From: Cytobacillus dafuensis
GTDB taxonomy: Bacteria; Bacillota; Bacilli; Bacillales; Cytobacillaceae
NCBI RefSeq assembly: GCF_007995155.1
Contig: NZ_CP042593.1
Span: 3,886,001 to 3,950,000, forward strand
Reading direction: 5' to 3'
Length of the DNA: 64,000 nucleotides
The number at the start of each line of letters is the position of its first letter. Within the stretch, counting starts at the first letter, position 1. The position numbers were made by a program, and so were the translations under genes. The notes under the pieces are model-generated. The model did no database searches and was not told where the DNA came from. It saw only the letters and a list, made by a program, of their open reading frames with translations. Shown in pieces: positions 14,193 to 63,746 of the stretch.

Positions 14193-15347
14193 TTAAGACT
14201 TATAAACAATTTCCCCATCAATAATTGTATATTTAACTTTTGCATTTGTATCGAACAATGGCATTCCTTCAAATAAGACAATATCTGCATCTTTTCCAAC
14301 TTTTAATGATCCAACTCTGTCTTCTATACCTAGAATTTTAGCCGCATTGATAGTAATCATTCTTAAGGCACGGTCTACTGAGCAACCCTCTCTCACGGCC
14401 TCACCAGCTTGATGAATAAGACAGTCTACACTTAAAATCGGAGAATCAGTCATTATAGCTACATTGACTCCCCTATTATCAAGTTCGTAAACACTTTCGA
14501 TATCTATTGGATCACATTCCCCAAAGCTTCTCATAACACCAATAGGTCCAAAAACTACATCACATCCACATTGTACTATTTCATCTATAAAATTCTTGGC
14601 ACCCCATGCATGTTCAATCGAAAGCTTTAATTCAAATTTATTTGCTATTTCAATTGCTGTGAGCATATCAAATTGTGTACAGTGAACTTTAAGTTGAATT
14701 TCCTTATTAAAAACAGGCATAAAAGATTCCATTTCTTCATTATATAATGGAAGCTTCTTAGGATTATTTGCATATTCCTCTTTTTTCTTAAAATATTCTT
14801 TAGCTTCTGTAAGTGTATCCATTAGCAATTTTGCAACGGCCATCCTAGTCATTGGAGTATTTCCTTTGCTCCCATATGTCCCAATAGGATTTCCGCCTAA
14901 AGCAACTTTCATTGCTATCGGATTTTTTATAACCATATTAAAAATATTAGCACCGTAAGTTTTTGAAGCTACTCCTAGACCGCCAATAACATTTCCGCTT
15001 CCGGGAATGATAGCGACAGATGTTATTCCATTTGGATAAGTATGTCTAAAATCTTTAGAAGTTAGATCAATACTATATCTAATGTCCAATGAAGGTGTTG
15101 AATGTTTAGTCATTTCATTTGCATCATCACTATATTTATCTTTTTCAAAATTCATAACGCCTATATGTGTATGAGCGTCAATTAAACCAGGTGTCGCAAT
15201 TAATCCTTCTGCATTAATTACAGCTTCATGTTGGTCATTAAGACCAACTCCAATATCTTTTATTTTCCCATTCTCTATTAAAATATCTCCATTTTCAATT
15301 ACCTTTCCAGCCATCGTGTAGATTTTTGCATTTTTTATTAACAGCAT
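14193..15347 (-). CDS. amidohydrolase family metalloenzyme (imidazolonepropionase/prolidase-like)
   Basis: This 384-residue amidohydrolase-superfamily TIM-barrel enzyme keeps its metal ligands: H59-T-H61 in GLIDAHTHIG, His in LKVHC, His in LSIEHAWG and Asp in IMTDSP. Related enzymes include imidazolonepropionase and amidohydrolase-type Xaa-Pro or Xaa-Lys dipeptidases. It is the last gene of the seven-gene peptide transport operon, and its start overlaps the stop of its degenerate paralogue. I infer that it hydrolyses an imported peptide or amide; the exact reaction is not evident. Confidence 0.85.
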   Translation of the reverse strand: MLLIKNAKIYTMAGKVIENGDILIENGKIKDIGVGLNDQHEAVINAEGLIATPGLIDAHTHIGVMNFEKDKYSDDANEMTKHSTPSLDIRYSIDLTSKDFRHTYPNGITSVAIIPGSGNVIGGLGVASKTYGANIFNMVIKNPIAMKVALGGNPIGTYGSKGNTPMTRMAVAKLLMDTLTEAKEYFKKKEEYANNPKKLPLYNEEMESFMPVFNKEIQLKVHCTQFDMLTAIEIANKFELKLSIEHAWGAKNFIDEIVQCGCDVVFGPIGVMRSFGECDPIDIESVYELDNRGVNVAIMTDSPILSVDCLIHQAGEAVREGCSVDRALRMITINAAKILGIEDRVGSLKVGKDADIVLFEGMPLFDTNAKVKYTIIDGEIVYKS

Positions 15348-16489
15348 GATTCTTCCTCCAAAGCTGAATATGCTATTTCTCCACTTATGATTGTGTATGA
15401 AAGTTTTGCATTATAATACTTTATTGGGTCATTTTCAAAAATGACTATATCTGCCTCTTTACCAATCTCAATACTACCTAATGTATCAGCTACTCCTAGC
15501 ATTTTAGCAGGATTTAGTGTAATCATTTCAATGATTTTCTCACTATTGATCCCCGCTCGATACCAATTAATTGCATTCCATAAGAATTGTTCTCTTCCTG
15601 CACTCATAGTATCTGAAGACATAGATATTGCCATTGGTACCCCTGCTTCTTCTAATTTTACTATTCTACTTAAATCTGTTTCGTTATAAATAAGTCTTGA
15701 TAAATAGATGTGTTCTCCTAGTACAAGAGATGCCCCAGAGTCTACTATGCTATCAAAACATCTATCAGCTTGATAGGCATTACAAATAACTAAATTTAGA
15801 TCATATTCTTTCAAAACATAAATCAAAGAGTCTATTTCTACTTTATCATTTGCAGTAACAAACAAAGTCATTTCTCTGTTTAGAACTTTCTTCAATATTT
15901 CTTTCCTATCGTCAACTCTTTCTGGTATTTCCTCCAAAGAATATTCCTTCGCTTCTTCAAACTGCGTTTTTAAAACATTAAAAATTCCCATCTTAGTTTT
16001 AGGGAAAATATTTTTGGCTCCATATGCATCTTTAATTAAATTAATTACGGAGCATTTAAGACCAACAAACTCCTTAACTAGCATTTTTTTAGAGTTTAAG
16101 CCTTTTGTCTTAAATGCAGCCATTTGTCCCCCAATAATATTTGAATTCCCTGGAGATGCTCCCACAGTTGTAATACCAGATTTATATATTTTTTGAAGTT
16201 CCATTTCCTGTGGATTAAATGAATATTTAATATTCATTTCAATCGTTACTGGATTTGTAATTTCATCATTATCATTTATTTTAGAAGATAAATCAAAGCA
16301 ACCTAGCCCGCATACAGGGTCAATAAACCCTGGAAATACATGTTTTCCTGTTGCATTAATTATAGCCACATTATCTATATCGATACTTTCCCTAACACTC
16401 CTAATTTTTCCATTATCAATAAGCACGTCACAATTCTCAAAAACTTCCCCTGTTCCAATATGAACTGTACCATTTTTAATAAGTATCAT
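15338..16489 (-). CDS. amidohydrolase-like protein lacking metal-binding histidines
   Basis: This 383-residue paralogue of the next gene aligns along its whole length, including the start (ILIKNGTVHIGTGEVFEN) and end. The catalytic HxH is replaced: GFIDPVCGLG has V59 and G61 where the partner has H59 and H61. The partner's LKVHC is LFVTA here, and LSIEHAWG is LVICNAYQ. It therefore seems unable to bind the usual metals, yet the frame is intact with a good ribosome site. It may act as a structural or regulatory partner of the active copy, or use different chemistry. Confidence 0.85.
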   Translation of the reverse strand: MILIKNGTVHIGTGEVFENCDVLIDNGKIRSVRESIDIDNVAIINATGKHVFPGFIDPVCGLGCFDLSSKINDNDEITNPVTIEMNIKYSFNPQEMELQKIYKSGITTVGASPGNSNIIGGQMAAFKTKGLNSKKMLVKEFVGLKCSVINLIKDAYGAKNIFPKTKMGIFNVLKTQFEEAKEYSLEEIPERVDDRKEILKKVLNREMTLFVTANDKVEIDSLIYVLKEYDLNLVICNAYQADRCFDSIVDSGASLVLGEHIYLSRLIYNETDLSRIVKLEEAGVPMAISMSSDTMSAGREQFLWNAINWYRAGINSEKIIEMITLNPAKMLGVADTLGSIEIGKEADIVIFENDPIKYYNAKLSYTIISGEIAYSALEEESCC

Positions 16490-27726: not shown

Positions 27727-27905
27727 TAGCTTAAGCATAAAACGCATCTCATTAGTTCATTTTTTCTTTTAGAAACTGTAAATAATAGATATAATGAAGG
27801 TCTACATGAAACGACTACTCCGTCAATTTAAATACTATTTCTATTAAAAATGCTAATTAAAACATTAAACATAAATTGATATTACTATTAATAGGAGATA
27901 CTTAT

Positions 27906-29153
27906 ATGGAATCCAAACAAAGATACGAAATGCTCTTAAATAATATGAATCAATACAATTCAGGAAACAGGGGTATTACAAGGGTAGCTTACACAAATGA
28001 AGAACAAGCTGGTACCCATGCTTTCATGCGGTTTTGCAAGTCTGAAAATTTAGATATCCGTCTTGATCCTTGTGGAAACTTGATTGCTAGAAGAGAGGGT
28101 AAAAATAATACGCTTCCACCAGTTGTCATGGGGTCTCACTTGGATACTGTTTACCAAGGGGGAAAATATGATGGAATTGTAGGAGTAACAGCGGGTCTGG
28201 AAGTGATCAAACGACTGAATGACAAAGGGATTGAAACAGATCACCCAATTGAGGTTATTTCATTTGCCTGTGAGGAATCATCAAGATTTGGCGTATCGAC
28301 TGTCGGAAGCAAGGCGATGGCTGGATTAATTGACAAGGAGAAATACCGAAATTTAAAGGATCGTGATGGGATTACGATGGAAAAGGCATTTGCCTTATGT
28401 GCGCTTGATTTTAATAGTATCGACGAAGCAAATAGAGCGAATGAAGGATTTAAGGCATATTTCGAATTGCATGTCGAACAAGGCCCTGTCCTTATAAATA
28501 ATAATAATAAAATTGGGATTGTTACTGGTATTGCAGCACCAGTCAGATTATTACTCAAAATCTTTGGGGTAGCTTCTCATTCAGGAACAACGCCGATGAA
28601 TATGAGAAAAGACGCTCTTCTTGGAGCCTCAGAGATTGCTTTAGAACTTGAAAAGGCGGCAAAACTAGAACAAGCTCATGGCACTGTTGGTACTATCGGA
28701 GTATTAGATATTCCTACTGGTGCAATGAATGTCGTTCCAGGTGAGGTAGAGCTAAAAATCGATATCCGATCAACCTCAACCGACTCGAGAGAGCGAGTGT
28801 TAAAACACATCTATGAAACCATTTCTTCAGTTAAAGAAAAGAGGCAGCTTGAAATCGATTACAAGGTCATTAGTTTAGAAGAACCTGTCCTTCTTTCTTC
28901 AGAACTAATAGAAGGAATAAGAAACATATGTGAGAGCAAGGAACTATCTTACGAAGTAATGCAGAGTGGTGCAGGGCATGATGCGATGAATATGACAAGA
29001 CTTGGTCCAACAGGATTAATTTTTGTACCTTCTGTAGATGGATTAAGCCATCATCCAGATGAATACACCGATCTTGACGACATAATGATTGGGATTGATG
29101 TTTTAGAAGAAGTTGTTATTCAATTTGCAAAAGCAGTAGAAATCACAAAGTAA
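27906..29153 (+). CDS. M20 family Zn-dependent hydrolase (N-carbamoyl amino acid / allantoate amidohydrolase type)
   Basis: This 415-residue enzyme belongs to the amidase, hydantoinase/carbamoylase family. Zn-binding and catalytic motifs are seen in GSHLDTVYQGGKYDG, CEESSRFG, ELHVEQGPVL, SHSGTTPM and SHHPDEYTD. Such enzymes split N-carbamoyl-L-amino acids, allantoate or ureidoglycolate, giving ammonia and CO2. The start at 27906 follows TAGGAGA; an upstream TTG in frame lacks a ribosome site. With the permeases, deaminase and carbamoyltransferase genes downstream it suggests breakdown of a ureide or ring-opened nucleobase. The exact substrate is unresolved. Confidence 0.88.
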   Translation: MESKQRYEMLLNNMNQYNSGNRGITRVAYTNEEQAGTHAFMRFCKSENLDIRLDPCGNLIARREGKNNTLPPVVMGSHLDTVYQGGKYDGIVGVTAGLEVIKRLNDKGIETDHPIEVISFACEESSRFGVSTVGSKAMAGLIDKEKYRNLKDRDGITMEKAFALCALDFNSIDEANRANEGFKAYFELHVEQGPVLINNNNKIGIVTGIAAPVRLLLKIFGVASHSGTTPMNMRKDALLGASEIALELEKAAKLEQAHGTVGTIGVLDIPTGAMNVVPGEVELKIDIRSTSTDSRERVLKHIYETISSVKEKRQLEIDYKVISLEEPVLLSSELIEGIRNICESKELSYEVMQSGAGHDAMNMTRLGPTGLIFVPSVDGLSHHPDEYTDLDDIMIGIDVLEEVVIQFAKAVEITK

Positions 29154-29311: not shown

Positions 29312-30016
29312 TTATTTCGCTCCAGCCTTCAGTAAAATTTCTTTTATCTCCTTAAAACCTCTTTCTTCTGCATGTTGAAGTGGTGTGACCCCTCCTGAAT
29401 CTGGAATGTTTACATCTGCTCCATGCTCAATTAATATTTTTATTGTTTCCTGCTGTTTTTTCCCGCCGTTACTTAAAACAATAGCCTCCATTAAGGCTGT
29501 CCAACCTAAATTATTGATATGATTCACATCGACATCAGTCTGTTCCAAAAGCACTTTTACGACTTCTATATATCCGTGCTCGGAAGCCGGAATAAGTGCT
29601 GTACCTCCAAATCGGTTTACGATTTTTGGATCCGCTCCCGCTTCAACCGTAAGCTTTAATATCTCAAGATACCCTTCGGCACCAGCATAAAGAAAGGGAC
29701 TATTTTTCATATTATCTTGAATATTAACGTCTGCACCCTTTTCAATTAATGCCTTAACCATTTCAGCATTATTCGCATACGTAGCAATCATAACCGCGGT
29801 CCTACCCTGATTGTCTCTGCTATTTACATCTATCCCCTGCTCTAGCAGCTCATTCACTTTCGCAATATTTCCTTGATCAGCTGCTTTAAAAAATTGACTT
29901 TTCATATCATCCCTCTTCTCTACTTTTATTTCCTTTGATTTCTCAGTTATATTAGGATTCTGACATCCTATTAAAATAAGTATCATCATCCAGATAGAAA
30001 GTCGTACAATTGCCAT
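29312..30016 (-). CDS. ankyrin-repeat lipoprotein
   Basis: This 234-residue protein has a lipoprotein signal ending in MILILIGC and then about five ankyrin repeats (for example NSRDNQGRTAVMIATYANN and VNIPDSGGVTPLQHAEERG). The start at 30016 follows GAGGG; the frame extends to a GTG at 30031. Its repeats resemble those of the ankyrin-TPR protein at 36173: VNRFGGTAL and NNLGW occur at equivalent places. The function is unknown; it is presumably a membrane-anchored protein-binding domain outside the cell. Confidence 0.88.
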   Translation of the reverse strand: MAIVRLSIWMMILILIGCQNPNITEKSKEIKVEKRDDMKSQFFKAADQGNIAKVNELLEQGIDVNSRDNQGRTAVMIATYANNAEMVKALIEKGADVNIQDNMKNSPFLYAGAEGYLEILKLTVEAGADPKIVNRFGGTALIPASEHGYIEVVKVLLEQTDVDVNHINNLGWTALMEAIVLSNGGKKQQETIKILIEHGADVNIPDSGGVTPLQHAEERGFKEIKEILLKAGAK

Positions 30017-30159
30017 GCTCACAACCCTCACTTGAAATAAGATTTTTTACTCATTTTCAATTTTCCCATAATGACCTATTTTTATCTTTTTGATATACTG
30101 TATATCGTATTATTCACATACAAATACTAAACATAATTTCCTTACTGGATTGGACGTGA

Positions 30160-31041
30160 ATGAAAAAAATGAGTCATACCGTTATCTACAAAGAAAATGA
30201 ACACTTTGCAATTAAGGCTGATTTCTACGAGACTAACCATAATAACGCCCCAGTTGTTGTATATATTCATGGAGGCGGTCTACTTTGGGGAACAAGAAAA
30301 GAGCTTAGCGAAGAAATGATACAACTATATACCAATAATGGTTTTTGCGTATTTTCTATCGACTATAGACTAGCTCCTGAGACAAAACTTCCAGACATCC
30401 TTGAGGACATGCAGGATGCTCTTCTATGGTTAGAATCTGAAGGAACTAAGCAGTTTTCTATAGATCCTAAAAGAATAGCAGTAGTGGGAAGTTCCGCAGG
30501 TGGTTTTCTTGCTCTTAGTACAGGAACATTTAAAAATAAGCCACGTGCCATTGTTTCCTTCTATGGATATGGAGACATTAGTGCCAAATGGGCAACAAGT
30601 CCAAACAAATTCTATTGCCAAAAAGATAAAGTATCGAAAGAAATAACAAATACCCTTGTTTCCGATCAAATTATCACTGAAGGATCTGTTGAAGATCGAT
30701 TTCTTCTATATTTATATGTGAGACAAACAGGTGAATGGATTCCATTCATAACTGGAATTAATCCATTATTTGATCAAGAAGAAATTCTAAAATTCTGCCC
30801 TATGTATAATATTTCGAAAGAATATCCCCCTACCTTATTTCTCCACGGTACGAAAGACGTGGATGTTCCATACGAACAATCTGCTTTTATGCGCGGGGCT
30901 TTAATAAAAGAAGGAATCGAAGCTAAATTAATTACAATTCCAAATGGAGAGCATGTTTTTGATAAGGATTTCCATAACCCTGTTGTTCAAAACGCCCTGA
31001 AGCAGGTCATTGAATTTCTTCAGGTTCATTTATCAATATAA
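30160..31041 (+). CDS. alpha/beta hydrolase (HSL-type esterase)
   Basis: This 293-residue hydrolase has the oxyanion motif HGGG (VVVYIHGGGLLWG), nucleophile in GSSAGG, Asp in HGTKDVDVP and His in NGEHVF. The fold and motifs match hormone-sensitive-lipase-type carboxylesterases. No signal peptide is seen. The start is either 30160 or the ATG nine bases later; the ribosome site is weak. The natural ester substrate cannot be predicted. Confidence 0.88.
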   Translation: MKKMSHTVIYKENEHFAIKADFYETNHNNAPVVVYIHGGGLLWGTRKELSEEMIQLYTNNGFCVFSIDYRLAPETKLPDILEDMQDALLWLESEGTKQFSIDPKRIAVVGSSAGGFLALSTGTFKNKPRAIVSFYGYGDISAKWATSPNKFYCQKDKVSKEITNTLVSDQIITEGSVEDRFLLYLYVRQTGEWIPFITGINPLFDQEEILKFCPMYNISKEYPPTLFLHGTKDVDVPYEQSAFMRGALIKEGIEAKLITIPNGEHVFDKDFHNPVVQNALKQVIEFLQVHLSI

Positions 31042-31317: not shown

Positions 31318-32598
31318 TTATTTATCCTTCCAAAGCTGATCAATGGTTATGGCAACAAAAGTCCCGATAAGTAACCCATTATGGAAAATATTCTGGATGA
31401 TATTTGGTAACCCGCTAAACGTTTCCTCTGGTAAAAACATAATGCCCATACCAATAAGAAATGCGACACCAATAATGGTCAAATTTCGTTCATTTAAAGA
31501 TTGTTTTGTCAGAGAACGAAGTGCAATTCCCAACATCTCAATGAGTGTCGCCAATAGAGCAGCACTGGCAACAGGCAAAGGTAATGAAGACAATAAGCCT
31601 ACAATGCTTGGAAATATTGAGATCGTGATTAGTATTCCGCAAGCGGTCAAGAACGGCAGAATGCGGTATTGCTTTGTTAGCTTTACAAATCCAGCAGTGG
31701 CAGGCAAAGGAACAACAGCAATCGTGGAGAACATAGCTGATAGAAAATGGGATATGCCTCCTGCCCATGTTCCTGAATTAAGTCTTTCTTGTAAAGATTT
31801 TTTATTATGAGGGACCACTTCCTCTGCTGAGGTTATGGCCGCAAATGTGTTGGAAAGCAGCAGAAATGTAAATAAAATGGCTGTAACTATAATACCACCA
31901 TTAAATTTTGGCAGCCCCCAAGCAAAAGCCTCAGGCAATCTTATTAGATCAGATGAAATGGTCAACGTTGTTTGGCTTTTGCCTAATACAGCAAATATGC
32001 TCCAGCCAAACAATATTCCGATAAGGATAGCGTAACTCTTTAACCATCCTTTCCCTTTTGTATTTAAGAATATAATAAGTAAAAAGACGAGCAGGGATAG
32101 TAAAAAGCTCAGTACATCCAAATGACCAGCACGATTACTGCTTGAGACCATCCCATTAAAAAATACACCACTTAATTGAATCGCTAATATAAATAGAAAG
32201 GTTCCGGTAACGATTGGTGTAAAGAGAAAGAGCAGATGCTGAACCCATTTTGTTATTCCTAATAAAAACAATGCCAAGCCTGCAATTAATAATCCCGCCT
32301 CAAGAATTTGCAGTGTCTCCATCATGGTGTTACCTTGCTGCAACCCTACACTTGCATAAATAACAAATATACTAACCCAAGAGCCAGCTGGACCATCTGC
32401 TATTGGATAACGGTGACCAAATTTCGCCTGAATGAACGAACTGAGACCAACGATAAAGAATGTTCTTTGCATTAGAGACGATATTTCTTGTTCAGAAAGC
32501 TGATACACATTTCCAATAACGATGGGAAGAGCAACTGAATTAGCAAGTAAATAAACAAACCATTGAAATGTACTTATATATTTATTTTCTGAGTTCAT
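31318..32598 (-). CDS. NCS2 family uracil/xanthine-type permease
   Basis: This 426-residue membrane protein has about 12 to 14 hydrophobic segments and belongs to the xanthine/uracil permease family (PF00860). A conserved N-terminal region YPIADGPAGSWVSIFVIYA and the middle segment NTFAAITSAEEVVP are family-like. It is one of two NCS2 permeases in this locus; the other at 33231 is only distantly similar. The substrate is probably a purine, pyrimidine or related ring compound. GGAAGGAA precedes the ATG. Confidence 0.87.
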   Translation of the reverse strand: MNSENKYISTFQWFVYLLANSVALPIVIGNVYQLSEQEISSLMQRTFFIVGLSSFIQAKFGHRYPIADGPAGSWVSIFVIYASVGLQQGNTMMETLQILEAGLLIAGLALFLLGITKWVQHLLFLFTPIVTGTFLFILAIQLSGVFFNGMVSSSNRAGHLDVLSFLLSLLVFLLIIFLNTKGKGWLKSYAILIGILFGWSIFAVLGKSQTTLTISSDLIRLPEAFAWGLPKFNGGIIVTAILFTFLLLSNTFAAITSAEEVVPHNKKSLQERLNSGTWAGGISHFLSAMFSTIAVVPLPATAGFVKLTKQYRILPFLTACGILITISIFPSIVGLLSSLPLPVASAALLATLIEMLGIALRSLTKQSLNERNLTIIGVAFLIGMGIMFLPEETFSGLPNIIQNIFHNGLLIGTFVAITIDQLWKDK

Positions 32599-33230: not shown

Positions 33231-34772
33231 TTACTCTGTAACAGGACCAATATTTTCTTTCTTATTTACATAAAGCTTGTACGCTAAAAATGCTGCAATT
33301 AGTAGATATCCCCAAACGAAAGGCATAGCAATATCTTGTGCAAGTCCGAGAGTGCTTGTATGAATAGCACCAACAAAAGTTAAAGCGGCTCCAAGCACAG
33401 CAGCTATTATTCCTCCAATAGGCGTGTTACGGATAGTAAATACAGCTATACAACCCCAAAGCACACTCGTAATAGGAGCACCATTACCTAGAGCAAGCAA
33501 ACCATCGTAGAAAAGTCCAGCATTGTGAAGGGCAAGTGAAGAAACTTGATCGGCACCCTCCCCTACCGACATACCAGTAGCCGAAATTGCATTATTAACA
33601 GCAGTAAGTGCCCAAGTAGCAACCCATGGGAAGAAACATACAAAGATTGCCGGAGCTTCAAATTTCGGACTTTCTTTAACAACTTGATGTCCTGTTACAA
33701 TCGCAATAAACACGAGCATCGGAACAATAGCGGCAATTGGGACAACAGCTAGTAAAAGACCCATAAGACTAAAAATTGATATCAGGAATATTGCAACAGA
33801 GCTAGCAATAGAATAGCCTAATCCAGCACCAACTTCTTTCCATCCAGCATGTCCTACATATACTGTTACTGGGAATGGGTTACCACAAAGGCCACCAATT
33901 GCAGAACAAACACCGTTTGTAATCATAACGTCTCTAGTTTTGTATTCGTCTCCACAAACAGCAGCAGCTTCAACGTTTTCTAGATTAAAAATGTAGTTTG
34001 ATAACCCTAGAGGTACAGCAGTTAATAAATATGGTAAAGCAGCGTTAAAACTGTCGGCAAAACCATCTAAATGTAACATAGGAGGATTAAAGCCAAATGA
34101 TTTTAGAGCTTCAGTAACATCAGCAGGATTTTGATAACCAGCTATCCAAGCAATTGCAGTTCCAACTACTATCAATAATAAACCTGTAGGTATTTTCTTG
34201 AATAGAGGATGCTTACTTAACCAGTTCATGAAAATAATTATTAATGCAACAAATGCTACTACAGGCATTTCAAAAGATTGTAGCATTGGGTTCATACCTA
34301 AGAATACAAATGCCAAACCTGCCAAGGCTGCTAGCAATACTGTTCTTGGAACGAGCTTTCGAATAGTTTCACCTAAAAATGCACCTATTAATAAAATGAT
34401 AGCCTCAACGAAGACCCAAAGGATCGCAACTGTTGTAGTAAAAGCAGCATCCTGTGTTTGATGATATAGAGGAAGCATAATCACAAATACGATAAGAAAA
34501 ATACCAGGTGAACTAGAACCTGATGGTAGAGCGGTAATGTCATTTCTACCTGTTTTCTTAGCTAATTTATAAGCAAAATAAGCAAACATAATACCAGATA
34601 GCAATACAGCAAATCCAAAGCCAGGAACAATTTGTTTATAAACGAATTCTTTTGGCATACCTACTACACCAATTAATAATGAAATCATAACCAAAAAGTC
34701 TGTCAAAACGTTAACGAACAAACCGAAGGAAGCAGCAAAATCTCCCTTTTTCCAAAAAGTCACGTTTCCCAT
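33231..34772 (-). CDS. NCS2/AzgA-like permease
   Basis: This 513-residue integral membrane protein has about 12 to 14 membrane segments. It is a distant xanthine/uracil permease relative: the TALPSGSSSPGIFLIVFVI region and GGLCGNPFPVTVYVGHAGW fit the family's substrate-binding loops. The site CAAGGAG precedes the ATG. The upstream gap (34773-35158) contains two copies of a TTTGTGCA/TTTTGTACAAA motif that also occurs before the PucR gene. It is expected to import the ring compound that feeds the deaminase. Confidence 0.87.
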   Translation of the reverse strand: MGNVTFWKKGDFAASFGLFVNVLTDFLVMISLLIGVVGMPKEFVYKQIVPGFGFAVLLSGIMFAYFAYKLAKKTGRNDITALPSGSSSPGIFLIVFVIMLPLYHQTQDAAFTTTVAILWVFVEAIILLIGAFLGETIRKLVPRTVLLAALAGLAFVFLGMNPMLQSFEMPVVAFVALIIIFMNWLSKHPLFKKIPTGLLLIVVGTAIAWIAGYQNPADVTEALKSFGFNPPMLHLDGFADSFNAALPYLLTAVPLGLSNYIFNLENVEAAAVCGDEYKTRDVMITNGVCSAIGGLCGNPFPVTVYVGHAGWKEVGAGLGYSIASSVAIFLISIFSLMGLLLAVVPIAAIVPMLVFIAIVTGHQVVKESPKFEAPAIFVCFFPWVATWALTAVNNAISATGMSVGEGADQVSSLALHNAGLFYDGLLALGNGAPITSVLWGCIAVFTIRNTPIGGIIAAVLGAALTFVGAIHTSTLGLAQDIAMPFVWGYLLIAAFLAYKLYVNKKENIGPVTE

Positions 34773-35197: not shown

Positions 35198-36148
35198 TTA
35201 TTTAACAATATGTGTACCTGCTTTTTCATTAATAGCATCTTTTAAGCTTTCTGGATCCGTAATAATTACTCTAGAACCACTTTTTTCAATGAAGCTTAAA
35301 CTTGCTTCGATTTTAGGAAGCATGCTTCCTGCTGGAAAGTGGCCTTCCTCCATATATTGTTTTGTTTCTTCAACAGTAATTTTCTCAAGCGCCTTTTGGT
35401 TAGGCTTACCAAAGTTGATGCAAACTCTTGAAACACCTGTTGTAATGATTAATGTTTCTGCATTCACTTGTTCTGCTAAAAGGCTTGTCGCAAAATCCTT
35501 ATCAATAACAGCATCAATACCTTCGTAAGTGTTGTTCTCAGATTTCACTACTGGAATGCCGCCGCCGCCAACAGCAATGACTACAAAACCAGCATCAATT
35601 AATGACTTAATAGCGTCTTTTTCAACGATATCAATTGGTCTTGGTGAAGGCACAACTCTGCGATATCCACGTCCGGAATCTTCAATGAAAATCCAATCTG
35701 GATGTTCCTTTTTCATTTCTTCCATTTGCTCAAGTGAAAAGAAGGAGCCTACAGGTTTTGTAGGATTTTTAAAATTAGGGTCGTCCTTGCTAACCTCGAC
35801 CTGGGTAATAACAGTAGCAACCTTTTTATTAATTCCTCTTTTTGCAAACTCACTCGTTAAGGATTGTTGAATTTGGTATCCAATTCCGCCTTGTGTATCC
35901 GCTACACAATTTACTAGAGGCATTATAGGCATACCCGCAACTTCATTGGCAATTTCAGATCGTCTTAAGCCAAAGCCTACTTGAGGACCATTTCCATGCG
36001 TAACAACAACATTGTAGCCCTCTTCTACCATATCAGTGATATTGACAACTGTTTCTTGTACTGCTTCATATTGGTCTTGAACGGAGTCACGACCGTTTTC
36101 TTTAACTAGTGCATTGCCTCCGATAGCAACAATAATTACCTCTCCCAC
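35198..36148 (-). CDS. arcC: carbamate kinase
   Basis: This 316-residue amino acid kinase-fold enzyme converts carbamoyl phosphate and ADP to ATP plus carbamate. Characteristic segments are IVAIGGNALV, VVTHGNGPQVG, PRPIDIVE and VIAVGGGGIPV. Translation starts at GTG behind ATAGGAGG. No arginine deiminase or ornithine carbamoyltransferase is nearby; instead it closes the operon with AllH, FdrA and AllG homologues, as AllK (YbcF) does in E. coli. It should harvest ATP from the carbamoyl phosphate they release. Confidence 0.93.
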   Translation of the reverse strand: MGEVIIVAIGGNALVKENGRDSVQDQYEAVQETVVNITDMVEEGYNVVVTHGNGPQVGFGLRRSEIANEVAGMPIMPLVNCVADTQGGIGYQIQQSLTSEFAKRGINKKVATVITQVEVSKDDPNFKNPTKPVGSFFSLEQMEEMKKEHPDWIFIEDSGRGYRRVVPSPRPIDIVEKDAIKSLIDAGFVVIAVGGGGIPVVKSENNTYEGIDAVIDKDFATSLLAEQVNAETLIITTGVSRVCINFGKPNQKALEKITVEETKQYMEEGHFPAGSMLPKIEASLSFIEKSGSRVIITDPESLKDAINEKAGTHIVK

Positions 36149-36172
36149 TTGTTTACCTCCTATAATTAACGA

Positions 36173-37348
36173 TTATCTTCTTTTATCTTTTTCTAGTAAT
36201 TCAATGGATTGCTCCTTGTGCAATTGATATAAAGGATTGGTTGGATCATTGGCAATCGCATTCTCGATTGCTTCAATAGCTTCTTCATGTTTGCCTAAAG
36301 ATCTTAGGCTGTTTGCCTTATGAAAAGAGAAATCATATCGATGATGCTGAAGAGCTAGCAGCTTATCCATTTCAATGACAGCTTCCTTATGCCTGCCAAG
36401 CTCTCTTAAATAATTTGATTTATGATATCGATAGAATGTATCACTAGGATTTAGCCCACAAGCCTTTTCATATTCCATTAGGGCTTCCTCGGGTTTTTTC
36501 CACAATCTATAACAATTAGCTGTGTAGAAATAAAAATCAAGATCTTTTGGATCAAGAGCTAAGGCTTTTTCGTATTCTTGAATAGCTTCCGCGTATTTTT
36601 TTAGCTCTTGTAAGAAATAGCCTTTATAATAAATCAAATCAAGATTTTGACCATCTGTTTCTAAGGCTTTATTTATTTCAGCAATCGCTTCTTCATAATG
36701 ATCGTTCTTAGCAAGTGACTTAGCCTTCATGATTGATTCATTTGTCTCTTTAAATTCTTTATTCAGAATTTTAACGACCTTATGCTGATTAAGCTCTTTA
36801 GCATGCTGACTGGAGGACTTTCCATCTCTATCAGGCAAATTCACATCTGCTCCTGCATCTACAAGTGTTTGAATAATGTCAGCGTATAGACGACCGCCAT
36901 TTCCTAAAATGACAGCTTCTAAAAGAGCAGACCAGCCTAAATTATTTACATGATTAACTGGAACTCCAGCATCAATACAAATTTGAACCGTTTTTAAATA
37001 GCCTTTTTCACTAGAAGGTAATAAAGCTGTTCCTCCAAAACGATTCACACTAGGTAAATCAGCTCCGCCAGCTATCATTAAACGCAATATTTCGTGAAAT
37101 CCATTTGCAGCGGAACAAATAAATGGAGATAATTGCGTGATGTCTCTGGTATTAACGTCACTTCCCGCTTCAATTAGCATTTTTACAGCTGCAACTTGAT
37201 TTTTTTGTGTAGCTGCCATTAAGGCTGTACGGCCTTCAGCATCTTTATAATTTAGGCTAGCGCCTTGTTTTAATAAATGCTCAATAGCAGATAAATCTCC
37301 CTGTTCACTTGCAAGAAGAAGTTCGGTGTTCAAGGATTGATTTTCCAC
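36173..37348 (-). CDS. ankyrin-repeat / TPR fusion protein
   Basis: This 391-residue protein has about five ankyrin repeats (residues 7-200, for example NYKDAEGRTALMAATQKNQ) followed by about five TPR units (205-391, for example AEAIQEYEKALALDPKD). GTG start after AAAGGAG. It has no signal peptide, unlike the related ankyrin lipoprotein at 29312. It is embedded between allG and carbamate kinase with short gaps, so it is co-expressed with a multi-subunit carbamoyltransferase. I infer a scaffold or assembly role; E. coli has no counterpart in its all locus that I know of. Confidence 0.9.
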   Translation of the reverse strand: MENQSLNTELLLASEQGDLSAIEHLLKQGASLNYKDAEGRTALMAATQKNQVAAVKMLIEAGSDVNTRDITQLSPFICSAANGFHEILRLMIAGGADLPSVNRFGGTALLPSSEKGYLKTVQICIDAGVPVNHVNNLGWSALLEAVILGNGGRLYADIIQTLVDAGADVNLPDRDGKSSSQHAKELNQHKVVKILNKEFKETNESIMKAKSLAKNDHYEEAIAEINKALETDGQNLDLIYYKGYFLQELKKYAEAIQEYEKALALDPKDLDFYFYTANCYRLWKKPEEALMEYEKACGLNPSDTFYRYHKSNYLRELGRHKEAVIEMDKLLALQHHRYDFSFHKANSLRSLGKHEEAIEAIENAIANDPTNPLYQLHKEQSIELLEKDKRR

Positions 37349-37431
37349 AACTATTCTCTCCTTTTGTTGTTATCTATTAGAAAAACTTGGCGTTCGCCAA
37401 GTCCTTAATTATTGAGTCATCCTCTTTGGTA

Positions 37432-38859
37432 TTATTGAATGTTTTCTGCTAAAGCAAGTAATGCTTTTTCATATGCTTCAACAGGAGGATACGTAATACC
37501 AGCACCAATCATTCCAATGCCTGGATCTTTATGTGCAATGGCTGTATTGATTATTGGCATAATGCCTGTTTGAATAACTTTACGAACATCAATTCCTGTA
37601 GGAACACCCATGAAATCTAGTAACGGAATTGTTACATTTGGATTTTCATCTGTTGTGATTTCCTTCATTTTTGTCGTAAAGCCAATTGCTTCTTCAACTG
37701 TTCCACCAACAAGAGCAACAATTGCAGGTGCAGCCGCCATTGCAAATCCACCGATGCCATAAGTCTCAGTGATCGCACTGTCACCAATATCAAGACCAGA
37801 ATCTTCTGGCTTATAACCAGCGAACATTGGGCCAATTACCTTTTGAGCTGGGCCTGTAAACCAAGTGTTTCCAGCCATGCCACTTACACGGATTCCAAAT
37901 TCAACACCATTACGTGCCATTGTAGTAACAACTGTACTGTTCTCAATGCCATGAGCAGCATCAAGCGCACATTTGCTCATAGCCATCCAAGTTGGACCAG
38001 AGAAGTAATCACTGCTTGCTACGAATTCAAATACTTCACGCTTCTGCTCAATCGTATAATCTGTTTGTAAAATATATGGCGTTAACGCTTGAATTAATAG
38101 AGTAGTTCCCGCAACGTTACGGTTATGACACTCATCACCCATATGAAGAGCTTGAGCAAGCATTAAACGAAGGTCAATTCCATTTGGATTTAACTTCATT
38201 GCATCTCGTAAAATTGGACCAAATACATCACGCATCCAAATTAAACGATTTATAACACTTTCATCGTTCGCACCCATACGAAGGATTTTTGATAATTGCT
38301 CACTTAAGTTTGTATAAGCAATGTTTCCGTATGTTTTGTTTTCAACAATGTGCATGAACATAGATGCAGATGTTACTCCTGCCATTGAACCAACACAGTT
38401 GTGCTCATGACATGGTGCAAATGTAATAGCACCAGAAGCTGCAACTTCCTCTGCTTCTTCAATTGTTTTTGCTAAGCCTTCGAATACGATAGCACCTGTA
38501 ACGGCACCTTTCATAGGTCCATTCATTTTATCCCAAGTAATAGGAGGACCTGCATGAAGGATAGTTGTTTTTGTCATACCTGGTACACAGTTGATCGCTT
38601 GGTCATAGCCAATTAAAACTGGCTTAGAGTTAATAATTCTTTCAACTGCCAATTTGTTAGCTTCCTCAATTTTCGCCATAATTGCAGGATTTTCAAGCTT
38701 ATCAAGTGCTGCAATTAGGCTTGGGTTCCCACGGCCTGGAGGAGTCCAATCTAAATGAGTAACTTCTGCGTTTTGCTCTAACATATCATCTTTAAAAGAC
38801 TCAATTCCAACATTGATAACATTAAGCTTATTATTAAAAAGTTCGTTAATTTTGCTCAT
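37432..38859 (-). CDS. allG: DUF1116 protein, AllG/YlbE-type carbamoyltransferase subunit
   Basis: This 475-residue protein belongs to DUF1116, the family of E. coli YlbE, a subunit of the AllFGH oxamate carbamoyltransferase. Conserved segments include VTHLDWTPPGRGNP near the N-terminus, ITFAPCHEHNCVGSMAG in the middle and AMAAAPAIVALVGG late. It directly follows fdrA (2-bp gap). The enzyme moves a carbamoyl group between oxalurate-like ureides and phosphate; which acceptor is used here is unknown. Confidence 0.9.
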   Translation of the reverse strand: MSKINELFNNKLNVINVGIESFKDDMLEQNAEVTHLDWTPPGRGNPSLIAALDKLENPAIMAKIEEANKLAVERIINSKPVLIGYDQAINCVPGMTKTTILHAGPPITWDKMNGPMKGAVTGAIVFEGLAKTIEEAEEVAASGAITFAPCHEHNCVGSMAGVTSASMFMHIVENKTYGNIAYTNLSEQLSKILRMGANDESVINRLIWMRDVFGPILRDAMKLNPNGIDLRLMLAQALHMGDECHNRNVAGTTLLIQALTPYILQTDYTIEQKREVFEFVASSDYFSGPTWMAMSKCALDAAHGIENSTVVTTMARNGVEFGIRVSGMAGNTWFTGPAQKVIGPMFAGYKPEDSGLDIGDSAITETYGIGGFAMAAAPAIVALVGGTVEEAIGFTTKMKEITTDENPNVTIPLLDFMGVPTGIDVRKVIQTGIMPIINTAIAHKDPGIGMIGAGITYPPVEAYEKALLALAENIQ

Positions 38860-38861
38860 GA

Positions 38862-40409
38862 CTATTCCCCTTTCACAACGAATTCTCTAGCCAATAGACC
38901 AGCATTCTGACTGCTGCTTGCATGTGTTACACCAGCAGCTAATAATTTATTCACTTGATCATCAAGGTTTTGTCTATCTAATTCTGTTCCAAGAACGTAT
39001 CCGATGATTTCTAAATGTCTGCCTTCTTGTTCAGCATTTTGTTTTGCTTCAATCATAGCTGGAAGCATTGCTCCAACAGGATCTTCATGTGCACCGAAGC
39101 CTAATACGAAGTCCATAACAATAACACCAACTGATGGATCCTTCGCTTCTTGGATGAATCTCTCAATACGGGTAGATGGGTCAATCATTGGATGTGGCTT
39201 ACCTTGTGTAAATTCATCATCACCGAAATCGATGAAAGTGTGCTCATTGCTAGTATTTCTATCTTTTAAGCGATATTCTGGATTTCTTGAAATGTTACTG
39301 TATACATTATCAAACTTTTCCATAGCTGCATGCATTGCCTCATCACATAGCGTACCGCCACTAAATAATCCGCGAATATATTTTTGCTCTGGCTTTAACT
39401 TTGTACGAACTTCCTCGATTAAAGGAATGTTTAGGGCACGTTTGTTAAGCTTGCTTTCGTCTGCACCAGCTAATACGACAGCTTTAATTGCAGCTTCTTT
39501 TGACATTTTTGCAAAATGGCCTCCAGCTTCTGTTACTTTCGTTTCGTCTCCGCCAATAAACCAAACAACAACTGGCTTGCTGCACTGCTTGATTTTCGCT
39601 AAAACCTTCTCTTCTACACTTGGTGCAGGTGGCTTAGATACGAGAACAATAACTTTCGTTGCTTCATCATCTTCAAGTGCTTGAATTCCATCAAGCATCA
39701 TAATTCCGCCAACTTCTTCTTTCAGGTCTCTTCCGCCTGTGCCGATTAATTGTGAAATGCCTCCTCCAAATTCATGAATTCGAACGCTGACTTCTTGGCT
39801 TCCTGTTCCAGAAGCACCGACGATACCAATATTGCCTTTTCTTACTGCGTTCGCAAAACATAGGGCAACATTTCCAATAATTGCCGTCCCACAGTCAGGA
39901 CCCATCATTAATAATCCTTTTTCATGGGCTAAATTCTTTAACGCAATTTCATCTTCAACACTTACATTATCGCTAAATAGCATAACGTTTAAGTCATTTT
40001 CAAGCGCTTTTCTTGCTTCTCTAGCTGCATACATTCCATTTACAGCAATAACTGCTAAGTTTGCTTCAGGAATATTTTCCGCTGCAGAAGAGATAGTAGA
40101 AAATTTAACTTCGCTCTTTCCTTTAGAAGGACCCTTCTTTTTCGTCAATAATTCATCAATACCAACGAAAGCGTTTTCACATAATTCATCTGATGCCACT
40201 TTAACAACAATGATCAAATCGCTTGTTCCTGCTTCTTCAATTTCTGGCGTCAATAATCCGACGTTTTTCATTACCTCTTTATTCATTTCAGTACCCATTG
40301 CAATAATGGCTTGCTCAACGCCTTCGATTTGATTCGCTTTCGTTGATAAAGACATTAATGATACTGAATCGAAATATGTGTTTGGCTTGATTACAGCTTG
40401 TACAGTCAT
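38862..40409 (-). CDS. fdrA: FdrA (AllF) family carbamoyltransferase subunit
   Basis: This 515-residue protein has the succinyl-CoA-synthetase-alpha-like fold of FdrA. Phosphate or nucleotide loop motifs include GPDCGTAII, GIVGASGTGSQEVS and GTGGRDL. In E. coli FdrA is AllF of the oxamate carbamoyltransferase complex. Its ATG overlaps the allH stop by four bases and it is followed by allG. GGAGG is the ribosome site. Older database names call it an acyl-CoA synthetase, but the gene set here supports carbamoyl transfer. Confidence 0.92.
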   Translation of the reverse strand: MTVQAVIKPNTYFDSVSLMSLSTKANQIEGVEQAIIAMGTEMNKEVMKNVGLLTPEIEEAGTSDLIIVVKVASDELCENAFVGIDELLTKKKGPSKGKSEVKFSTISSAAENIPEANLAVIAVNGMYAAREARKALENDLNVMLFSDNVSVEDEIALKNLAHEKGLLMMGPDCGTAIIGNVALCFANAVRKGNIGIVGASGTGSQEVSVRIHEFGGGISQLIGTGGRDLKEEVGGIMMLDGIQALEDDEATKVIVLVSKPPAPSVEEKVLAKIKQCSKPVVVWFIGGDETKVTEAGGHFAKMSKEAAIKAVVLAGADESKLNKRALNIPLIEEVRTKLKPEQKYIRGLFSGGTLCDEAMHAAMEKFDNVYSNISRNPEYRLKDRNTSNEHTFIDFGDDEFTQGKPHPMIDPSTRIERFIQEAKDPSVGVIVMDFVLGFGAHEDPVGAMLPAMIEAKQNAEQEGRHLEIIGYVLGTELDRQNLDDQVNKLLAAGVTHASSSQNAGLLAREFVVKGE

Positions 40410-41290
40410 AATTTACCTCCAGCTTTTATATTGGCTTCCAATCCGCAGACAAGTCCTAAGGCTATATCTGTCCCTGATGAAGAGCCTATGTTTAATACTT
40501 TATTTAAAGAGAGAATTAATTCTTCGTCTTTCCCTTTCATAATGGCATGGACGAGCTGAATAATAGATTCTCTTACTTTACCAATAGAAGCTTTTTTTAA
40601 AGCCATATAGCTAATATCATTCGTTAATGCTTTGGCTTTCTTAACCACTTCTTCGCAAAATGATTGATTTGAAAACAAATAGCAATTTTTTATATTCATG
40701 ATGGTAAATAATCCAACTAGAAAATCATCTCCAGAAGGTGTTAAGCCAGGACCAAGTCCAATTAGTGAAACCGCATAATTTAATGCATTCGAAATTCTGC
40801 CATTTAGCAATTCATGTATAAGCTTTCGAGATTGTTCATCAAGAATTCTTGAAACTTCTTTAGAAAATAGGAGATTAGATGCTGAATCTGGTTTTACCCC
40901 TCCGCTTTTTCCATGAACTTCAATATAATCCTTTACGATATTTAAATTTCTTTTAACCATTTCTATTTCTTTAGGAAAATCAGGTAAAATACTCTCCCAT
41001 TTTTCACAATCTCTAATAGAGATATGAAGCTTATCACCGATGTGTAAAGATTTTTTCATAACCATAACTGGATCATTTACTTCAATGCTGGTATTTTTAA
41101 AGTCCTCTACATCTACAACTAATGTATTGGGGCCATTGTCTGTTTTTTTGCACACTATCGTGAACAATTCATCACTTTCTAGGTTTCGAATATTAAATGT
41201 ACAATTGAATACACTGTGAACAAAACCACGAAAACTACAATCCTCTATTCTTTCAATGAATTCATCATCTCCAGATATCGCTAATTTCAT
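40406..41290 (-). CDS. allH: DUF2877 protein, AllH/YlbF-type carbamoyltransferase subunit
   Basis: This 294-residue protein belongs to DUF2877, with the signature GLGPGLTPSGDDFLVGLF in the C-terminal half. The start at ATG 41290 follows AGAGGTG; a GTG nine bases upstream lies in that site. It is the first gene of the minus-strand operon allH-fdrA-allG-ankTPR-arcC and is divergent from the PucR-type regulator. In E. coli this family is the third subunit of oxamate carbamoyltransferase. Confidence 0.9.
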   Translation of the reverse strand: MKLAISGDDEFIERIEDCSFRGFVHSVFNCTFNIRNLESDELFTIVCKKTDNGPNTLVVDVEDFKNTSIEVNDPVMVMKKSLHIGDKLHISIRDCEKWESILPDFPKEIEMVKRNLNIVKDYIEVHGKSGGVKPDSASNLLFSKEVSRILDEQSRKLIHELLNGRISNALNYAVSLIGLGPGLTPSGDDFLVGLFTIMNIKNCYLFSNQSFCEEVVKKAKALTNDISYMALKKASIGKVRESIIQLVHAIMKGKDEELILSLNKVLNIGSSSGTDIALGLVCGLEANIKAGGKL

Positions 41291-41456
41291 TTGAGTCACC
41301 TCTTTAGTCTGGAATGCTCACAGATTTGTCTAACTTTACGAGGCCTCCTTTTCATAATAAAAATAACTATTTGACAATGAACCAGCATTACGAGATTATT
41401 TTATATAAATTGCCTATGAGCGTCATCGTTTAATGAAACCAAAAACATATAAAGTC

Positions 41457-41514: not shown

Positions 41515-43221
41515 ATGCTTACAGTAAAAGATCTTTTACAAGTTAAAGCGATAGATGGAATCAAAGTGGTTGCTGGGGAAAAAGGGATTAATAATGTCAT
41601 TTCGATTGTTAATATTATGGAAAATCCAGATGCATTCGACTGGCTATCCTCTAATGAACTCCTTTTATCTACAGGGTATATTTTTAAGGATAATGAGCAG
41701 CTGCAAGATCAAATCATAAAGGAATTATCAGAGATAAATTGTTCCGGACTTGTAATCAAGATGAAGCGATATTTTGATAAAATCCCTCAAAATATGATTA
41801 ATCAAGCAAACAAGTATGGACTTCCCCTATTAGAATTACCCTTTGAATACACCTTGTCTAAGGTAATCTCCATTATCAATGAGAAGGCTTCAGGAAGATA
41901 TGATTTACTAAATCGAAAAACACTAGACATGCATAATATTCTTTTTCGAATTGCACTAGAAGGAGGAGGAATTGAACGAATTTCCTCCATGTTGGCTGAT
42001 ACAGTAAACAATCCAATTCTTCTTTTAGACAAGGATTGGAAATTATTACACTATAAAGAATATGTTGAAAATAAAATTCCTTTAGCTTATTGCCTTGATC
42101 TCGTAAAAAATAGACCTACTTTTAATAAGGAATTTACCGATTTAATTCCTCAGGATATCAGTGAAATGAAGAAGCTGATTAAACGTATTTATCGAGTAGA
42201 AGATTTGGAGGTAAAATGCCGTATCCTGCCGATCGGCGTAACAAATGAGATTTTGGGATATATTGTTGTTTGGCAAACCGTTCGTGAGCTTACTGAATTC
42301 GACTATATCACTTTAGAACAAGCCTCAACAATCATTGCCCTCGAATTAATTAAAGAGAAAGAGATTGAGGATGTTAAATTAAAGATTAGGCAAGATTTCT
42401 TCGATGATTTACTGACAGGTAAAATAACATCTACAGAAACCATTCAGACTCTTTGCAGCTTACATGGATTAAATCCTAATTATATGTATCATTGTATGGT
42501 TATTAATATGGAATCAAGTGAGCTAGAAAAGTACGAGGATATGGTCGCAAGGAAATATAAACTTGAAGGCAAATTAAAAAAATGTGTGAATTTAGTATAT
42601 GAAAATTCGAAAAAAGAAGATGGGGAAATAACGTGCTTCCATCGAAATAATCGAATCATAATATTATTTGGAAAAAATGAAACAAGACCATCCATTTCCA
42701 TTAATGAAGCTAAACAATTTGCTAGTGATATTCAAAAAATATTATCAAATCATATTCTTAATACAGAATTTATTATAGGGATTGGCAGGCAATATAGCCC
42801 TATTAGTTCTCTTTATAAAAGTTTTTCCGAAGCAAACGAGGCCATAAGGCTAATGCAAAGGTTTGAGGATCGAGATGGAATAGCCCACTTTGATGATCAT
42901 TCAGTCTATCATTTATTAGACTCAAATATTAAAGATGCGGAATTAGAAGATTTTTTCCTAAAAAGTCTTGGAAATTTATATGAACATGACTCTTTACATG
43001 GGACAAGTTATATTATTACTTTAGAAAATTATTTCATTAATAATCAAAACATTAGTGAAACAGCTAAAGCAATGTTTTTGCACAGAAACACCCTTATTTA
43101 TCGAATAGAAAAAATTAAAGAAATTTTGAATAGCGATCTAAAAAACTCAGAAGAATTACTCAGAATCCAAATATCCCTGAAAATATTTAGACTGTTAAAT
43201 AAAAATCATCTGGAGCATTAA
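41515..43221 (+). CDS. PucR family transcriptional regulator
   Basis: This 568-residue regulator has an N-terminal PucR domain (1-125, MLTVKDLLQVKAIDGIKVVA), a middle GGDEF-like region and a C-terminal helix-turn-helix (HTH_30) with AKAMFLHRNTLIYRIEKI. PucR in B. subtilis controls purine degradation in response to allantoin-type ligands. Here it is divergent from the carbamoyltransferase operon, and a shared motif before its gene and before the permease unit suggests it controls both. The ligand is unknown. Confidence 0.93.
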   Translation: MLTVKDLLQVKAIDGIKVVAGEKGINNVISIVNIMENPDAFDWLSSNELLLSTGYIFKDNEQLQDQIIKELSEINCSGLVIKMKRYFDKIPQNMINQANKYGLPLLELPFEYTLSKVISIINEKASGRYDLLNRKTLDMHNILFRIALEGGGIERISSMLADTVNNPILLLDKDWKLLHYKEYVENKIPLAYCLDLVKNRPTFNKEFTDLIPQDISEMKKLIKRIYRVEDLEVKCRILPIGVTNEILGYIVVWQTVRELTEFDYITLEQASTIIALELIKEKEIEDVKLKIRQDFFDDLLTGKITSTETIQTLCSLHGLNPNYMYHCMVINMESSELEKYEDMVARKYKLEGKLKKCVNLVYENSKKEDGEITCFHRNNRIIILFGKNETRPSISINEAKQFASDIQKILSNHILNTEFIIGIGRQYSPISSLYKSFSEANEAIRLMQRFEDRDGIAHFDDHSVYHLLDSNIKDAELEDFFLKSLGNLYEHDSLHGTSYIITLENYFINNQNISETAKAMFLHRNTLIYRIEKIKEILNSDLKNSEELLRIQISLKIFRLLNKNHLEH

Positions 43222-63470: not shown

Positions 63471-63746
63471 AAAGTGAAACTTCCATCAGTGGGGGTTTTT
63501 CGACGCACAGGACGTGCTAGTGCCGACGTTGCCACAGGACGTGGCGTTCTTAGTTGGCCTTCATCCCCCACTGATGGTTAGTTGCGGCCCACAGGAAGTG
63601 GGTCACGCAGACGTTGCCACACGATGTGGCGCTTTTAGTCTGTGTTCATTTTACGGGCCTTTACGGGCAGTAAGACCCCCACTTACTCTTCTTTGTATAC
63701 GCGAATCCTTGAAGTGGGGGTCTTACTGCCCGATAATCTGCGATAA
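63471..63746 (+). repeat. long structured intergenic repeat, copy R4
   Basis: It is near-identical to R1 for its first 120 bases (AAAGTGAAACTTCCATCAGT to CCCCCACTGATGGTTAGTTG). It then diverges in the GC-rich middle and matches again at the last hairpin (CCCCCACTTA and AAGTGGGGG inside GGGCAGTAAG and CTTACTGCCC). The gap 63368-63967 holds this element and an AT-rich stretch with no gene I can support. Confidence 0.85.

Follow-up and report, generated by a model that had tools for sequence, protein, structure and literature searches.

A yah-type carbamoyltransferase and carbamate kinase operon in Cytobacillus dafuensis as a counterpart of the orphan yah operon of Escherichia coli

A stretch of 64,000 nucleotides of the Cytobacillus dafuensis genome (contig NZ_CP042593.1, G000:C1:3886001-3950000; hereafter the window) carries an operon for a carbamoyltransferase of the AllFGH kind and a carbamate kinase. 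The genome is a single contig of 4.92 Mb with an estimated completeness of 100%. Judged by its sequence, this operon is real and widely distributed, and it is the Bacillota counterpart of yahD-yahE-yahF-yahG-yahI, the orphan yah operon of Escherichia coli. The reading that we prefer, with a probability of roughly 55%, is that yah-type genes form a catabolic module in which a compound other than allantoin would be turned into a carboxy-acylurea and then, through AllFGH and ArcC, into carbamoyl phosphate and ATP. The operon would thus probably gain ammonia and ATP from a nitrogen-rich compound.

The tandem AllH-AllF-AllG-(Ank-TPR)-ArcC, claimed in a preliminary description of this DNA, is borne out by the family models PF11392, NF004760, PF06545 and TIGR00746 (Table 1), so that AllF, AllG and AllH are present together with their carbamate kinase partner. 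Hidden Markov model (HMM) checks covered ten genes around the operon and two amidohydrolase open reading frames (ORFs) at 14193-16489; the remaining window ORFs, listed with lower limits of 90 and 150 residues, were assessed by reading their translations. From AllH to ArcC, the genes are spaced by -4, 2, 83 and 24 bases, which makes the tandem operon-like. AllG has at least 8000 relatives, and the observation of the operon is therefore not due to chance; among the matches listed, the window AllG is 95% identical to the copy of Bacillus sp. DTU_2020_1000418 and 92% identical to that of Fredinandcohnia salidurans.

The same description equated the operon with the allantoin module allFGHK of E. 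coli, and this equation does not hold, as the yah genes are its closest relatives in E. coli. The window AllF, AllG and ArcC share 65, 75 and 57% identity with YahF, YahG and YahI, versus 37, 45 and 35% with AllF, AllG and AllK. In a tree of 83 AllG sequences (midpoint-rooted, with several long branches flagged, E. coli AllG included), the yah-type proteins form a separate clade of 68 rows with a support of 100/100, which includes the window protein, YahG and the protein of PDB entry 3clq, and from which allantoin-type AllG is absent. In this tree, E. coli AllG clusters with allantoin-type AllG proteins encoded by three genomes of the Enterococcus faecalis order. We take the 3clq chain to be an E. 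faecalis protein, and G719 was called E. faecalis on the basis of a 100% match to this chain and of a neighbouring protein that shares 99% identity with one bearing the name E. faecalis.

The E. coli yah operon (yahDEFG-IJ, NC_000913 335280-342507) shares with the window the ankyrin protein, the AllH-, AllF- and AllG-type subunits and the carbamate kinase, and the counterparts of YahE, YahF, YahG and YahI all lie within the one window operon. There are also clear differences. E. coli encodes the amidohydrolase YahJ, with a twin-arginine translocation (Tat)-like signal, whereas the window has a CDA-fold deaminase instead and no protein of the YahJ type; the regulator is of LysR type in E. coli and of PucR type in the window; permeases, present in the window locus, are lacking in the E. 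coli yah operon; and the ankyrin part is fused to TPR, unlike in YahD. YahH was considered as a permease remnant, and no similarity was found. As for allFGHK, it likewise encodes a carbamate kinase and members of all three subunit families, but it is embedded in allantoin genes, and E. coli AllG is without the N-terminal stretch of about 58 residues of the window AllG. The first part of this stretch (residues 6-55) matches positions 505-554 of the 555-position FdrA model; this end piece of the model is apparently the C-terminus of AllF in E. coli and the N-terminus of AllG in the window.

Judged from titles, beginnings of abstracts and passages (including those of PMC3364942), no described function of the E. 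coli yah genes was found in the literature. The names yahE, yahF and yahG do not appear in the main text of PMC11326118, nor do yah names and Bacillus in PMC9843812. This type of operon is thus already known as a sequence in E. coli, though with no described function found.

Neighbourhoods were compared in the best 80 of 572 confirmed loci of a genome-collection scan, a biased sample of the top matches to the window. Loci with an AllG of at least 68% identity were called yah-type (69 loci, 58 of them full-length and 11 incomplete); the other 11 loci, at 52-59%, are an intermediate group that forms a grade and not a single clade in the tree. Partners were counted by tblastn at 1e-10 within at most 10 kb per side. 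The yah-type module occurs in Bacillota, Pseudomonadota and Actinomycetota. AllF is found in all 69 loci, ArcC in 57, the ankyrin protein in 54 and AllH in 49, the last count being probably too low because AllH diverges fast. Further partners are the family of the 513-residue membrane protein (33 loci), the YahJ-type amidohydrolase (30, four of them at only 29-33% identity), PucR (19), NCS1 (17), the CDA deaminase (14), a CodB-like protein (11), M20 (4) and NCS2 (1). Any of the permeases sought is present in 55 of the 69 loci and a deaminase of either unrelated fold in 43, with both folds in one locus, L035; the module thus recurs with deaminases and permeases. NCS1 is also present in 13 of the 14 CDA loci, and in 13 of the 14 CDA loci other than the window the deaminase stands in the place of the YahJ type. 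The fold largely tracks phylogeny, with the YahJ type in Enterobacteriaceae and CDA in Bacilli and some Actinomycetota; within Neobacillus the two folds exchange (L033 versus L034 and L103). Most enterobacterial YahJ-type proteins start with a Tat-like signal, so that deamination probably takes place outside the cytoplasm there. The ankyrin, CDA and YahJ-type genes were found in none of the 11 intermediate loci. The occurrence of the ankyrin protein in most yah-type loci and its absence from these 11 point to a yah-type-specific function.

In the pathway that we propose, a permease would import a nitrogen-rich ring compound or a ureide, not allantoin, and the zinc deaminase would convert an acylguanidine-type group, -CO-N-C(NH2)=N-, into an acylurea. 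Ring opening, where needed, would give a carboxy-acylurea of the oxalurate type, HOOC-...-CO-NH-CO-NH2, which the AllF-AllG-AllH complex would phosphorolyse into a carboxamide and carbamoyl phosphate; from the latter and ADP, ArcC would form ATP, CO2 and ammonia. We infer both the class of the substrate and the order of these steps. The nearest solved relatives of the CDA deaminase are guanine and guanosine deaminases, and those of the YahJ-type proteins are N-isopropylammelide hydrolases (155 bits). Since enzymes of both kinds act on acylguanidine groups, we propose this chemistry for both deaminase types. The zinc motif HAE ... PCxxC of the CDA deaminase is conserved without exception in the 13 aligned sequences, and so is an arginine near the conserved GFxD motif which, as a guess, could bind an anionic substrate.

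The transcarbamylase reaction of the window complex is predicted by analogy with its E. coli paralogue AllFGH, which according to PMC11326118 is a purified oxamate carbamoyltransferase, stated to have no similarity to known transcarbamylases. According to passages of PMC514541 and PMC3282769, the arginine and agmatine deiminase pathways likewise use a deiminase, a carbamoyltransferase and a carbamate kinase to lead from a ureido compound to carbamoyl phosphate and ATP; however, their deiminase and carbamoyltransferase families are unrelated to those of the window. A bolder and more tentative version of our proposal, which we hold to be somewhat doubtful, is that the yah-type operon, in both Bacillus and E. 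coli K-12, represents an energy-conserving route so far undescribed, in which an acylguanidine carrying an amino substituent (ammelide, aminobarbiturate or amino-imidazoledione type) would be deaminated by either of two unrelated deaminases to reach the carboxy-acylurea, carbamoyl phosphate and ATP. Creatinine was also considered as a substrate, and no paper title on a creatinine link was found.

Regarding transport, two NCS2 permeases had been described. The YbbY-like protein is one of them, whereas the 513-residue protein has no NCS2 similarity in sequence. The latter reached no Pfam or NCBIfam family at cut-off and no PDB chain by profile, and profile comparisons with NCS2, AzgA, NCS1 and CodB gave 0.2-1.7% probability, versus 92% for the NCS2-AzgA control. 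Its NCS2 identity is therefore supported by none of these sequence tests; the NCS2-NCS1 comparison itself gave only 0.1%, so that the protein may still share the NCS2 fold.

Several observations weigh against the proposed pathway. Neither the window operon nor the E. coli yah operon contains a ring-opening enzyme, and a cyclic substrate would thus need one from elsewhere. No activity data were found for any yah protein. A deaminase is missing from 26 of the 69 yah-type loci, 20 of these being among the 58 full-length ones; phylogeny is a confounder of the deaminase pattern, and the 80 loci, as the best matches to the window, are an uneven sample. In the window, 425 bases lie between ArcC and the part with the 513-residue protein, the deaminase and NCS2. 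The yah-type locus of E. faecalis has only PucR, AllH, AllF, AllG and a membrane protein, with no deaminase, ankyrin protein or ArcC nearby, and the YahJ-like and ankyrin genes of this species adjoin its allantoin-type locus, which has AllD over cut-off; this placement, together with the stripped yah-type locus, suggests a related chemistry of both systems. Finally, the M20 enzyme of the window, which passes a subfamily model of allantoate amidohydrolases, leaves some room for an allantoate step.

As to ring opening, an alpha/beta hydrolase like that of the window lies within 8 of the 80 other loci, seven times at 61-78% identity, and is by recurrence alone a candidate in Bacilli. Near Trichococcus yah-type genes, a 443-residue protein with three RidA-type matches is encoded at L068:15165-16493 (similar ORFs in L071 and L196). 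The abstract of PMC3758960 describes AtzD as a concatenation of YjgF-type monomers, and the 443-residue protein could for this reason be a ring-opening enzyme. AtzD itself had no match in the C. dafuensis genome; a control search was likewise silent, and its absence is likely.

Among the alternatives, the one that survives best, unlikely as we consider it, takes oxalurate as the substrate, derived not from allantoin but from parabanate or its 2-amino analogue: the deaminase would make parabanate, this would open by itself to oxalurate, and the operon would be part of the long-known oxalurate pathway. To go by their titles, as cited in PMC11326118, a paper of 1965 reportedly deals with the induction of an oxamate transcarbamylase by parabanic acid in a Streptococcus, and one of 1986 is said to treat an oxalurate pathway of Streptococcus faecalis that includes a third carbamate kinase. 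Both titles favour this alternative, and it needs no ring-opening enzyme. It also agrees with E. faecalis L210:1838-3913, where a lipobox-like ankyrin gene and a YahJ-like amidohydrolase gene stand upstream of the allantoin-type AllF-AllG fusion, AllH and ArcC. However, the yah-type locus of E. faecalis is without ArcC, deaminase and ankyrin protein, so that the old enzyme is more likely the allantoin-type one of L210; the amino precursor is a proposal only, with no evidence in nature; and a second oxalurate enzyme would be redundant beside the all system. A link between the yah type and the oxamate carbamoyltransferase studied in E. faecalis in the 1960s-80s was dropped as unproven, since this species has two AllG loci, of which the allantoin-type one has ArcC and AllD.

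Less probable still is a role of the operon in the breakdown of allantoin or purines, in which genes at other places of the genome would supply the steps that it lacks. Within the window, no allantoinase, ureidoglycolate dehydrogenase or glyoxylate genes were recognised among the listed ORFs, in agreement with the preliminary description. Its CDA-fold deaminase and M20 carbamoylase were both confirmed as well, and the M20 protein passes the NF006771 allantoate amidohydrolase subfamily model (468 over 399), with 277 versus a cut-off of 598 for the AllC equivalog. An allantoin role could also draw on the PucR-type regulator, on three Mo-hydroxylase (molybdenum hydroxylase) genes of the xanthine dehydrogenase family (PF02738) and on a cyclic amidohydrolase at G000:C1:2314075, which passes the TIGR03178 allantoinase model by 5 bits (363 over 358) but stays far below two other allantoinase models (365 versus 631 and 289 versus 688). 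On the other hand, no uricase (PF01014) was found in the genome, two control genomes being positive, and no ureidoglycolate dehydrogenase at cut-off, the only Ldh_2 protein reaching 186 and 200 bits for cut-offs of 496 and 356. Thus, of the allantoin genes sought elsewhere in the complete genome, uricase and, at cut-off, AllD were not found, and the one allantoinase-like protein is borderline. Ureidoglycine aminotransferases can give oxalurate, and class-V aminotransferases were checked for this reason: among the 12 examined of 23 class-V places in the genome, none is a close relative of the aminotransferase of locus L212 (best 24% over 204 residues).

The distribution of these genes argues in the same direction. 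In a sample of 398 genomes (yah-type AllG taken as at least 66% identity to the 3clq chain, cyclic amidohydrolase at E up to 1e-120), the amidohydrolase was found in 11 and yah-type AllG in 18, and both only in C. dafuensis; the idea that the purine cluster at G000:C1:2.30-2.33 Mb feeds the operon was rejected on this ground. The amidohydrolase gene stands outside the window in a tandem with genes for an isochorismatase-family hydrolase, UbiX and UbiD (L025:75-4078, G000:C1:2314075-2318078), by the xanthine dehydrogenase cluster L024. The clostridial purine route runs through ureido- and amino-imidazolecarboxylate, and this gene set would suit such a route, which would be unusual for a Bacillus.

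Moreover, the two systems coexist. E. coli K-12 carries both, and G700 has a yah-type set with NCS1 and CDA (L198) beside an allantoin-type cluster (L212) with AllC (716/598), AllE (346/200), two AllD (624 and 613/496), an aminotransferase and its own AllFGH and ArcC. Five genomes from the E. faecalis order were chosen for carrying the yah type, and all five hold at least two AllG copies, a second one being of allantoin type in the three examined (E. faecalis, G647 and G700). This presence of the yah type beside a full allantoin-type system makes a separate role likely. The feeding of the operon by allantoin is therefore unlikely, and the non-allantoin role suspected earlier is supported as probable. 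The last alternative, in which the carbamoyltransferase and deaminase-permease genes are separate units and a guanine deaminase and a permease are neighbours by chance, might lean on the 425-base gap and on guanine deaminase GuaD as the best solved relative by single-sequence search (116 bits), but we consider it the least probable, the CDA gene being found in 14 of the 69 yah-type loci, across several families, and never in the 11 others, and the genome already having an amidohydrolase-type guanine deaminase (415 over 375).

The intermediate loci bear on the chemistry of the wider AllFGH family. They encode AllF-AllG and often AllH, with NCS2 in 6, PucR in 9 and ArcC in 6 of the 11, and seven of them have a candidate ring-opening enzyme, which the window operon lacks. 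L101 ([Clostridium] ultunense) and L104 (Tissierella pigra) encode on one strand PucR, AtzD, a cytosine-deaminase-like protein, an unclassified 417-residue protein, NCS2, AllH, AllF, AllG and ArcC, and L112 (Paenibacillus tepidiphilus) encodes PucR, AtzD, NCS2, AllHFG and ArcC. The AtzD cyanuric acid hydrolase model is passed with 563 (L101) and 575 (L112) bits over a cut-off of 360, and these loci (L101:2510-12356, L104:2506-12337, L112:4940-12332) might hold an ATP-yielding cyanuric acid route.

In L100, L102, L105 and L109, a Mo-hydroxylase and a cyclase (PF04199, checked in L105) take the place of AtzD, and no ArcC was found. Beyond an M42 peptidase, L109 encodes an OadB-type sodium-pump subunit and malonate decarboxylase alpha (887/789), delta (94/84) and beta (339/228); L105 has MmdA-like (under cut-off), OadG, biotin-carrier and OadB proteins between AllH and AllF; by translation reading, no such decarboxylase genes were seen in the stretch examined of L100 and L102. 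From its gene context, the simplest reading of L109 is that uracil would be converted into barbiturate by the Mo-hydroxylase, into malonurate by the cyclase and into malonamate and carbamoyl phosphate by AllFGH, followed by malonate and its decarboxylation, with no gene assigned to the malonamate-to-malonate step. L109:449-17991 and L105:958-16172 could thus encode an energy-conserving uracil or barbiturate fermentation. Malonurate, 1-carboxybiuret and oxalurate are all carboxy-acylureas, and this gene context leads us to propose that the AllFGH family phosphorolyses that class.

The genes of the window locus are collected in Table 1.

Table 1. Genes of the yah-type operon and its surroundings, with positions in the window
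Feature	Position	Strand	Evidence
AllH/YahE-like subunit, 297 residues, GTG start, first operon gene	40406..41299	-	PF11392 101 bits; 26% to YahE
AllF/YahF-like subunit, 515 residues	38862..40409	-	NF004760 FdrA 503 bits, cut-off 433; 65% YahF, 37% AllF
AllG/YahG-like subunit, 475 residues	37432..38859	-	PF06545 296 bits; 75% YahG, 45% AllG; 73% PDB 3clq chain
Ankyrin-TPR protein, 391 residues, YahD counterpart	36173..37348	-	Ank_2 82 bits, TPR matches; 37% to YahD
Carbamate kinase ArcC, 316 residues, YahI counterpart	35198..36148	-	TIGR00746 379 bits, cut-off 358; 57% YahI
513-residue membrane protein, unclassified family, candidate transporter	33231..34772	-	relatives in 33/69 yah-type loci
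CDA-fold zinc deaminase, 157 residues	32709..33182	-	PF00383 89 bits
NCS2 purine/pyrimidine permease, YbbY-like	31318..32598	-	PF00860 197 bits; NF037981 388 bits, cut-off 40; PRK11412 249 under 370
PucR-type regulator, divergent from operon	41515..43221	+	PF07905 113 bits; divergent PucR in related Bacillota loci
M20 hydantoinase/carbamoylase-family amidase, possible accessory	27876..29153	+	TIGR01879 405 bits, cut-off 204
Second ankyrin protein, 239 residues, lipobox-like N-terminus, possible accessory	29312..30031	-	Ank_2 173 bits
Alpha/beta hydrolase, possible accessory or ring-opening enzyme	30160..31041	+	PF20434/PF07859

A conserved stretch upstream of AllH is common to the window, L035, L103 and L036. 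Promoter-like sites in the window (37) were fewer than in shuffles (46.9, standard deviation 6.5) and terminator-like sites (13) somewhat more (8.0, standard deviation 3.0), and neither count was used. Three Bacillaceae-1 RNAs (RF01690) lie on the minus strand at 4435-4500, 63504-63569 and 63588-63654. The two adjacent amidohydrolase-family ORFs at 14193-16489, on the minus strand by an oligopeptide-type ABC transporter, reached no NCBIfam model at cut-off. Elsewhere in the genome, a tandem at L125:1146-12184 (G000:C1:1518145-1529183) encodes PdxA-like and creatininase-like (under both cut-offs) proteins, an ABC transporter, a FAD oxidase, two cytosine-deaminase-like amidohydrolases, a DeoR-type regulator and a DUF1537-like kinase; apart from the creatininase-like protein and the amidohydrolases, these names come from sequence reading without HMM.

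To conclude, E. coli K-12 seems to carry in its yah operon a whole orphan pathway. The relatives of this operon contribute two things that are missing from it: permeases and an alternative fold of the deaminase. These additions narrow down the substrate, which is likely transported by NCS1/NCS2-type or related proteins and deaminated. If the energy-conserving route proposed here is true, all of the AllFGH family would act as phosphorylases of carboxy-acylureas, with front ends that can be exchanged, and one of its other branches would be a uracil fermentation by way of barbiturate, malonurate and the decarboxylation of malonate.

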